Shown: in pieces, positions 46,843 through 49,386 of the stretch
How positions within the stretch are numbered: position 1 is the stretch's first letter
How the letters are laid out: the number at the start of each line of letters is the position of its first letter
From: Zingiber officinale
Lineage: Eukaryota; Streptophyta; Magnoliopsida; Zingiberales; Zingiberaceae
Length of the DNA stretch: 64,000 bases
Assembly: GCF_018446385.1 (NCBI RefSeq)
Contig: NC_055986.1
Span: 27,266,302-27,330,301 of the forward strand
Direction: 5' to 3'
The notes under the pieces: model-generated
Told to the model about the DNA's origin: nothing
The model's input: only the letters and a program-made list of their open reading frames with translations
Database searches by the model: none
Program-made: the position numbers and the translations under genes

Positions 46843-49386
46843 GAGTCATATTTTCATAAAATTTAATTCCAAAATAATATTCCGAATGCACATGACCTTA
46901 TCATGTCTCTCAGACTCTCTCGTTGACATTAAGACATAATAATAATTATCGTATGAGCTAACGAGAAGTGGAAATGGAGGAGAAGTCAAGAAGAGAAAAC
47001 TGTCATCCTCCATAATTTTTTGGAAAAAAGAAAATTTTATTTAATAACCCTCGAACAGTAAAATACATGTTTACATAGAATTTAACCTTAAAACCCAAAT
47101 AAAGGAAATAAATCATAATATATGGATTACAGTTCCTAAATGGTAAAGTAAAAAAATCTAAAATAAAAAAAAATATAATTATTAAAATATTAAAAATAAT
47201 AATAATAATCTTCGGATACTCCTGCCACATACTTCTTCCTACTATTATAAACACAGCACCATCATGAACAAGACCTAAAATAAGTAATGAAGAATACCGT
47301 TAGACTTCTTACAATTTCATAAACCCATGAGATCTGAAATAGGTCCAATCGGGCCTGTCTAGGTCGATCAGTAGATTTTGGGCAAAATCCACTGATAAAC
47401 TTAGACATGTCTGATTAAATCTATTTCAAGTCTTGTGGGTTTCTGAGACTACAAGAAGTTAATGGTATTCTTCATTACTTATTTTCGTCTCACTGGAAGT
47501 GTTATAATATCATGCTAACTTTTATCTAGAATGTGGTCCTAGTCTCTAGAAAATCAAACTCATGTCGAGCTTGATCTGAATCAGACCAGGCTCAAGGATC
47601 TAAATCAGCACTACCACGAGCCTGATTTGATTCAGATTAGGCTTAAGGCTTAATTTCCCAGAAACTAGGACCACATTCTAGCTGAAAGTTAGCATAGCAT
47701 TATAGCACCTCCGGAGAGTCCAAAAATAAGCAATGGAAGATATCATTGGACTACTTGCAGCCTTAAAAATTGATAAGAACTGAAATGAGTCGAATCAGAC
47801 TTGTTTAGGTCCATCAATGGATTTCGGTTAAAACTCACTCATATTAGTCCCTTGGCGATCAGCTAGAAGGGGATGAATAGTCTGCACAATAAAAACTAAC
47901 AAAGCCCCTTCTCGAACTTTATAGCTTTATTAGTCTAACATTTGCATAAAAAAATAAGAGACTATAAAAGAAGAAGCACAAAAGAGTTACTTGGCTTGCA
48001 ATCAGAGGATTGCTAATCCAAAGAAGTTGAAGTTCACTAAACAATCTCCTTCAGACAAAGAAGTCTCTTACAACAATTGAAGCACTCAATTACAGAACAA
48101 AACTAAAGAGGAATCAATTACAAGTATTTTTTTGATCTTCTGGGACCAGGGTTGTATTTATAGCCCTAACCAGGACGCCGGAAGGGTTCTAGGCACCTAG
48201 AGGGAGATAGAATTTTATCCTCATCGCAACAAATCACGCCACATTACGAAATGATGAAGTTTTGATTCCAGGCGCCCATACCAGTAAAGTCAACTTTTCG
48301 ACTGACTTTTTGGTCTAGGTCTTCCGCTCCGGTTCCGCTTGCTTGGGTTCGGGTCTTCTGCTTTGGTTCCGCTCACTTGGGTGATTTCGACCATCCAGAA
48401 TAGGGTTCACCTAAACCCATTTTTGAGCCTTCTCGAGCAACCTTCCACTCCGGCTTCTCGTCCCTCAGAAATATCGCGCGCCTCCTTCTCGTCCGCCCCG
48501 CGTACTCTTCCATAGCACCTTGCTCCTCGGACCCACTGAGCTCATCGGCTCTCTCCCATGTCGTCCTTCTCACTAGCTGCGTCTTTCGCTCGATTTCCTG
48601 TGCTCCTAAGTTCCTGCACTCTCAGACACAAGGGTTAAATCACAACAGGACTTAACCTGACTTGGTTGATCACATCAAAACTATCTTGGGGTACTAACAA
48701 CTCATGGACCTAGACAGGTTGATTAGATTCATTTCACTATGAGTTTCTAAGGCTGTAAGGAGTCTAAGAGTGTCCTCAATTGCTTATTTCGGTCTTTCCG
48801 AAGGTACTGCAATATTACGCTAACTTTTAGCTAGAACATGGTCCTAGTGTCTGAGAAATCAATTCCACAATGGGCATGATCTAAATTAGATCAGACCCGG
48901 AGGATATAAATGAGCACTACCACAGGTCTGATCTAATTCAAATCAGACTCAACATGAGTTTTTTTTTCTTAGATACTAGGACCATATTTTAGTTGAAAGT
49001 AAGTATCACTTTCGAAAAGACCAAAATAAGTAATAGAAGATATCGTTAGACTCTTTACAACCTTAGAAATTTATAGAATTTGAAATATGTCTAATAAGAC
49101 TTGTCTAGGCCTATGGGTAGATTTTAATCGAAATTCACTATTGACCTTCTGATTGAATCTATTTTAGATGTTGTAAATTTTTGAATTGGTAAAAAGTCTA
49201 ACAATGTTCTTAATTATTTATTTCAGATTTATTCACGATAACATTACATTTATAATAAACAAAGAAGTATGATAATTACGGAGCTCAATGTCGTATAACG
49301 GAAAGAGAGGAGTGAGAAACACAAGGTCATGTGCATCAGAACAATAAAAATTAATTTTGAATTAGATTTTTAAAAAATATGATTCC
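46843..49386. mobile_element. Foldback element: terminal inverted repeats enclosing a tandem array of five hairpins
   Basis: Terminal arms 46843-46965 and 49262-49386 are reverse complements at moderate identity; both hold 'tgcacatgacctt' (minus reading on the right) and outer 'tcatatttt'. Between them are hairpin A1 (47277-47485, perfect 22-bp outer arms), B1 (47492-47714), A2 (about 47725-48795, split by a solo LTR), B2 (about 48795-49015) and A3 (about 49020-49225). A hairpins share 'aataagtaatgaagaata'-type ends; B hairpins share 'gctaacttt' and 'atggtcctagt'. There is no coding capacity, and no convincing TSD. 46965-47270 is AT-rich and has little counterpart on the right. Confidence 0.8.
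47842..48699 (-). repeat. Solo LTR inside the foldback array
   Basis: 858 bp, perfect 5-bp TSD ACTCA (47837-47841, 48700-48704). The left end TATTAGTCCC aligns with TGTAGGACCG of the LTR at 55542; the right end GGGGTACTAACA matches that family. There is no internal region, so it is a solo LTR left by recombination between LTRs. The open frame at 48373-48573 is LTR sequence. Confidence 0.85.

Follow-up and report, generated by a model that had tools for sequence, protein, structure and literature searches.

A foldback-type element of ginger with an internal array of alternating units, probably of the Mutator superfamily

The element described here is likely to be an old, degenerate, non-autonomous foldback-type DNA transposon of ginger, probably belonging to the Mutator (MULE) superfamily. 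It lies in a 64,000-nucleotide stretch, hereafter the window (C1:27266302-27330301, in a genome of 3,090,333,446 bases and 211 contigs). A sequence-only reading had proposed a foldback-type mobile element in which hairpins of two types, A and B, follow each other in the order A-B-A-B-A inside terminal inverted repeats (TIRs). This architecture is supported, as the layout of left TIR (T), array and right TIR (T') recurs elsewhere in the genome. Two types of junction palindrome are indeed present, but both are made from one ~220-bp unit, U. As an alternating array of any unit gives two junction palindromes, the A and B hairpins are, on sequence comparison, the two junctions of U in alternating orientation.

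Structure of the window copy

Unit U was found by cutting the element at the palindrome centres and aligning the pieces, and is represented by a profile of 219 positions. Its copies in the window (Table 1) have the order -, +, -, +, -, +, the terminal ones being half units. With U written as ab and slashes marking the junctions, the plan of the element is T - a'/a b/b' a'/a b/b' a'/a - T', in which the A hairpin is the a'/a junction and the B hairpin the b/b' junction.

Table 1. Features of the window copy (window positions)
Feature	Position	Strand	Evidence
Left TIR (T), truncated	46835..46933	+	TX positions 196-305 of 340, E 2e-17
Unrelated repeat inside left TIR, limits approximate	46934..47227	.	
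Half unit, U positions 1-115, A1 left arm	47265..47380	-	profile E 1.6e-28
A1 palindrome	47277-47485		
U1 (A1 right arm + B1 left arm)	47383..47597	+	profile E 1.5e-56
B1 palindrome	47482-47725		
U2 (B1 right arm + A2 left arm)	47612..47826	-	profile E 2.3e-58
A2 palindrome, interrupted	47723-48789		
TSD ACTCA, left copy	47837..47841		
Putative solo LTR of a retrotransposon family, 858 bp, in A2 loop	47842..48699	-	
TSD ACTCA, right copy	48700..48704		
U3 (A2 right arm + B2 left arm)	48700..48904	+	profile match 48698-48904, E 5.3e-53
B2 palindrome	48787-49025		
U4 (B2 right arm + A3 left arm)	48918..49125	-	profile E 2.5e-44
A3 palindrome	49023-49226		
Half unit, A3 right arm	49129..49229	+	profile E 1.7e-11
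Right TIR (T')	49232..49452	-	T1 49232-49432 E 9.9e-43; TX 49260-49452 E 8.3e-33
Right TIR outer part, end near 49570 inferred	49453..49570	-	outward-flank alignment read by eye, no profile match

Inverted-repeat search and self-alignment placed the A1-B1-A2-B2-A3 series at 47277-49226. The outer arms of A1 form a 26-nt pair (47277-47302 / 47460-47485, 96%), and the perfect 22-bp match earlier reported for them is present in the sequence, while the B1 arms (47482-47557 / 47650-47725) display 80% complementarity over 76 nt. Self-alignment of 47385-47824 as reverse complement gave 71% over 449 columns (E 6e-54), and 47228-47814 aligned in the same manner to 49271-48704 at 69% over 596 columns. 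This is the opposite of arms that pair only in short stretches, the outcome that would have spoken against the original proposal. The long TIRs pair over much of the element, as in foldbacks. The predicted RNA fold of A1+B1 (47277-47725) has an energy of -225 kcal/mol, compared with -99 +/- 5 in shuffles (z -23.9), that of B2+A3 (48787-49226) has a z-score of -13.9, and 0 of 100 shuffles were as stable in either case. The fold z-scores, together with the long reverse-complement alignments, exclude a chance origin of the palindromes. The A+B module, thought to be ~460 bp long and present about 2.5 times, is repeated, the B2 and A3 arms also being found, although the measured period is ~446 bp. 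All five of the consecutive palindromes initially described were recovered, which sets the element apart from a simple single-palindrome MITE, but A2 is not contiguous, as its loop is split by 47842-48699.

Of the 48 matches listed for a whole-element query (best 40 of 20,265 candidates scored), 38 are confined to the interrupting segment. On the reverse strand it opens with TGTTAGTA and closes with TA instead of CA. The sequence GTATCAG(AG), presumably part of the initiator-tRNA-Met primer-binding site (PBS), directly follows the LTR end in four of six relatives (L003, L004, L007 and L008) and is absent in L005 and L006. The segment is taken for a solo LTR in view of its 5-bp TSD, its LTR-type start and the PBS-like sequence beside these four relatives. 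The unrelated repeat within the left TIR was delimited with a query of 46835-47120, for which 38 other places matched, all from query position 91 or higher (best 40 of 182 candidates). A genome search identified C2:31674920-31677477 (L002), with 93% identity over the whole element, nested repeats included, and this locus reads as an allele of the window element. In L002, T resumes past the inserted repeat at 1886-1926, equivalent to about 47228-47268 of the window. Both nested insertions are common to both haplotypes. Copies of the left-TIR insert and the LTR-type repeat also lie near each other at C8:34361202-34362429 and C7:37028874-37029995.

The TIR was modelled with a profile of 205 positions (T1), which was extended to 340 positions (TX); ~290 of these run inward from the inferred end, CGGAATT. 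TX positions 1-195 are missing from the left copy (the first 49 lie outside the inferred end), and the truncation is equally present in the C2 allele. The palindromes are thus enclosed by T on both sides, as had been proposed, but the limits suggested for the element, 46843 and 49386, are not its true ends, because the right TIR extends to ~49.57 kb and the left TIR lacks its outer part. Comparison of the T and U consensuses revealed no similarity above shuffles. U therefore cannot be recognised as a copy of this TIR, and an origin of the unit as a duplicated piece of it is not supported. Further T matches with no U nearby, at window 37370-37507 (E 1e-14) and, weaker, 32677-32762 (E 4e-4), are probably remnants of related elements.

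Several other features were observed in the window. An OPT oligopeptide transporter frame (Pfam PF03169, E 5e-74) at 24434-25378 (+) was the sole clear host-gene match among the 13 frames tested of 25 window ORFs of at least 140 aa, and an 819-residue frame at 60788-63247 (+) contains Retrotrans_gag (PF03732, E 8e-20) with a weaker Ty3_capsid match. A tandem AT-rich array with several periods, the longest 157 bp, occupies 11409-12312. The Rfam search of the window returned two tRNAs and nothing else, tRNA-Gly(TCC) at 27012-27083 and tRNA-Met(CAT) at 27464-27537, both (+); this closely spaced pair might represent an insertion of organelle DNA.

Alternation, abundance and age of the units

Alternation was evident in 121 of 129 adjacent U pairs from 42 loci (72 A-type and 49 B-type junctions, 5 ++ and 3 --), a set that includes the window and several allelic pairs and is biased in that most of its loci were retrieved with an A+B query. 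The set was compiled without the LTR loci L003-L008, the left-insert loci L041-L058, overlapping loci and ten MULE loci. One ++ exception is common to the C9 and C10 alleles, and in some same-orientation pairs the two members are pieces of a single unit. Twelve loci (L062-L073) retrieved solely by their right terminal repeat are free of the query bias, and here 28 of 32 adjacent pairs alternate; a thirteenth such locus, L061, coincides with L017 and was counted under that name. Every locus in one fetched set of ten from the genome search contains at least two alternating U matches. The longest stretch of alternation at a locus spans between 1 and 10 unit matches, and the internal repeat number is thus variable between copies. 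End-to-start offsets were 3-5 at 46 of the 72 A junctions and 14-16 at 22 of the 49 B junctions.

These data bear on whether A and B could be two MITE families inserted repeatedly beside or into each other. Each hairpin is palindromic and in this respect resembles a simple MITE. Both, however, are built from halves of one unit, their junctions recur over many loci and the orientation alternates in 121 of 129 pairs, making such an origin very improbable. Nor, at the fetched loci, do A and B occur mostly as lone MITEs, which the sequence-only reading had named as a result that would count against it: they are found together at these loci, most of which were identified with the A+B query, and U is present in 13 of 13 loci located by the right terminal repeat alone.

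The genome contains 15 right-end matches (15 candidates, all scored). The window and its C2 allele account for two of them, and at all 13 other places U lies within 1.5 kb of the match. The complete arrangement of T, alternating U and T' recurs at C9/C10 and at C7/C8, with a short form at C16 (L072). The family is therefore represented by dispersed multiple copies with common ends, as foldbacks are. A genome-wide scan with a 22-base core of U, allowing up to 3 mismatches, yielded 15,309 sites (control 15). The count was 4,841 for the palindromic A centre (control 0) and 28 for a 22-base T motif (control 2). The T motif matched only 3 of 20 tested T- or U-bearing loci, so that T ends are undercounted; even so, U seems to be much commoner than T. 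Given the disparity between 15,309 and 28 sites, most copies of U probably belong to relatives whose ends are different. Exact 13-base motif pairs with equally wide gaps occurred in opposite orientation across B at 39 sites and in the same orientation, one unit apart, at 8. The 110 same-orientation pairs (58+52) at one-module spacing fit alternation and would suit plain tandem modules as well.

Larger arrangements of the units were also observed. At C12:14153508-14159829, C15:2671083-2678523 and C7:121611005-121617726, same-direction modules at ~455-470-bp spacing face opposite-direction modules 5-9 kb away, and C17:135813089-135821779 and C16:10886392-10891778 have the same layout. These places are probably long-TIR relatives, their layout resembling that of foldbacks whose long TIRs are repetitive, and are candidates for an autonomous member. 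A long relative at C3:150586722 to about 150596033 (L094, L015, L019) comprises T and U, ~4 kb of other sequence and U arrays. Its ~4-kb middle, all but 780 bases of which were read, contains proline-rich ORFs, and five ORFs of this copy (L015, L094) had no match in Pfam. This relative may have captured host sequence, and C4:130011855-130016650 looks like its allele.

Unit halves have a mean identity of 0.69-0.75 when compared inside one locus and of 0.63-0.70 when taken from different loci. The arms of the same A hairpin exceed other pairs of their locus by a mean of 0.014 (22 loci, 14 positive; Wilcoxon p 0.07), and B arms by 0.021 (18 loci, 10 positive; Wilcoxon p 0.15). Gene conversion of, or selection on, the arms is unsupported by an excess that is slight and not significant, and that would accommodate a weak effect. 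Likewise, terminal half units were not more alike by position (0.692 vs 0.692), the observed difference being reached in 104 of 200 label shuffles. The divergence pattern appears to be old and nearly star-like, without clear arm conversion.

The same measurements speak to the view that the locus is an endogenous hairpin RNA gene, a siRNA or MIRNA-like source maintained for the sake of its transcript, and not what is left of a transposon. The very stable folds (z -23.9 and -13.9) and the slightly greater likeness of same-hairpin arms (A +0.014, p 0.07; B +0.021, p 0.15) are what such a gene would display. The excess is, however, unclear, the element has no Rfam match at gathering score and the window copy is interrupted by two insertions in both haplotypes; we regard a hairpin gene as highly unlikely.

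Two arrays differ in character from the window copy. L071 (C16:48091571-48094672) consists of four plus eight contiguous alternating units; the a-halves are 85-98% alike in 10 of the 12, two units are divergent, and the b-halves are 51-96% alike. In L078 (C2:9150000-9152100), with ten alternating units, those four apart are 0.85 alike and neighbours 0.74. Judged from these similarities, both loci show later growth in place with alternation preserved. The four-unit period of L078 suggests duplication of four-unit blocks, and the L071 arrays are seemingly young. Near-identical module starts among the 22 matches listed for C1-C4 suggest a younger subfamily.

Ends, superfamily and proposed history

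Growth of this kind, the variable unit number and the 15,309 U sites against 28 for T would all be consistent with a dispersed satellite-like array of alternating monomers that spreads autonomously, through extrachromosomal circles or break repair, with the T flanks as hitch-hiking DNA. At T-bearing loci, in contrast, the array next to T usually starts or stops with a half unit cut at about U position 103-125, and such fixed ends are unlike a satellite. As two insertions also have TSD-like flanks, autonomous spread of U is considered improbable and a transposon bounded by T is preferred.

The copy at C7/C8 is flanked by GATTTTATAA/GATTTTACAA, which match at 9/10 positions with ends set by eye; 0.4% of random flank pairs reach 9/10. 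The flanks of the C10 copy, AGATAAATA/AAATAAATA, match at 8/9 (0.9% of random pairs), those of its C9 allele at 7/9 (6%) and those of L072 at 7/10 (14%). L065 and L070 were excluded because their right ends are cut, and the window copy, having no left end, is outside the comparison. The C7/C8 and C9/C10 copies represent two independent insertions. Among plant superfamilies, long TIRs combined with 9-10-bp TSDs indicate MULEs. The long TIRs and imperfect 9-10-bp TSDs of the ginger element therefore suggest this assignment. The weakness of the TSDs would also suit a foldback of the proposed architecture from another superfamily, as would the failure to find a transposase: neither T nor U lay within 1.5 kb of any of the ten loci read among those with a MULE transposase match (PF10551; best 150 of 3,530 candidates scored). 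This alternative is considered unlikely in view of the long TIRs with 9-10-bp TSDs and of PMC4486113, in which a 9-nt TSD is termed typical for MULEs.

For the probable MULE foldback the following history is envisaged. Transposase supplied in trans would act on the T ends, with the U array carried along as the body of the element. Some arrays would later have been altered in place by the duplication of unit blocks, retaining alternation. The window copy would then have gained the solo LTR in A2 and the repeat in the left TIR, and its outer left end would have been lost; it is broken and very likely no longer mobile. A bolder scenario, which we consider unlikely, is that the alternating array represents a distinct way of building a foldback transposon: hairpin-primed (fold-back) replication, in the course of transposition or repair, would have copied one non-terminal unit again and again in alternating direction, giving an element that is palindromic at every scale, with many putative transposase-binding sites and thousands of hairpin loci feeding small-RNA silencing.

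Significance and comparison with known foldback systems

U arrays, with 15,309 core motif sites in a crop genome, could easily be recorded in fragments, as MITEs or hairpins with no connection to each other. Should arrays grow by alternating copies, ginger contains both seemingly young (L071) and old (window copy) stages, and the origin of long palindromic foldback arrays becomes testable. The palindromes are also candidate siRNA sources and candidate chromosome-breakage sites. The suggestion that the family may be undescribed is borne out to the extent that a full-text literature search, with much subscription literature outside its scope, returned no description of the ginger family or of an alternating-unit foldback; the element nevertheless belongs to a known kind, the foldbacks.

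The Arabidopsis foldback FARE1 has long palindromic repeats at both ends, and internally repetitive foldbacks are already known in FB4, Galileo, Tetris and MuTAnT, which are the nearest systems by design. FARE1 is classed as a MULE (PMC4486113). MuTAnT, a group of MULE foldbacks from Medicago (PMC4486113), resembles the ginger element in being a mostly non-autonomous plant element with long modular TIRs that form the foldback, and its 9-nt TSD is close in length to the imperfect 9-10-bp duplications in ginger. It is described as a 292-bp element with 218 related copies and TA microsatellite targets, for which the end mask GGGGTTTGCTAGAACA was used in the search and a putative autonomous partner is given; a figure legend mentions four similar segments with orientations. 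By description, the ginger element is set apart from MuTAnT by its five palindromes, its different ends and the fact that no partner was found.

Tetris from Drosophila virilis (PMC4079207) is likewise a non-coding foldback, with a variable count of ~220-bp internal repeats and 8-10-bp TSDs. In Tetris, however, the TIR-220 repeats are in tandem inside each TIR and have 37 bp in common with the outer TIR domain, whereas the ginger unit, compared by description, alternates through the element and has no detectable likeness to T. The fruit fly element Foldback4 (FB4; PMC2955051), likened here by description, has palindromic ends of >400 bp in most copies and a variable number of internal modules. 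Galileo (PMC3688188) shares long, internally repetitive TIRs with the ginger element, but differs in its P-element-related transposase and in having long direct repeats within the TIR. Two internal repeats of Galileo contain additional transposase-binding sites (PMC3688188) and, by analogy, it is possible that the U repeats provide extra binding sites for the transposase of the ginger element.
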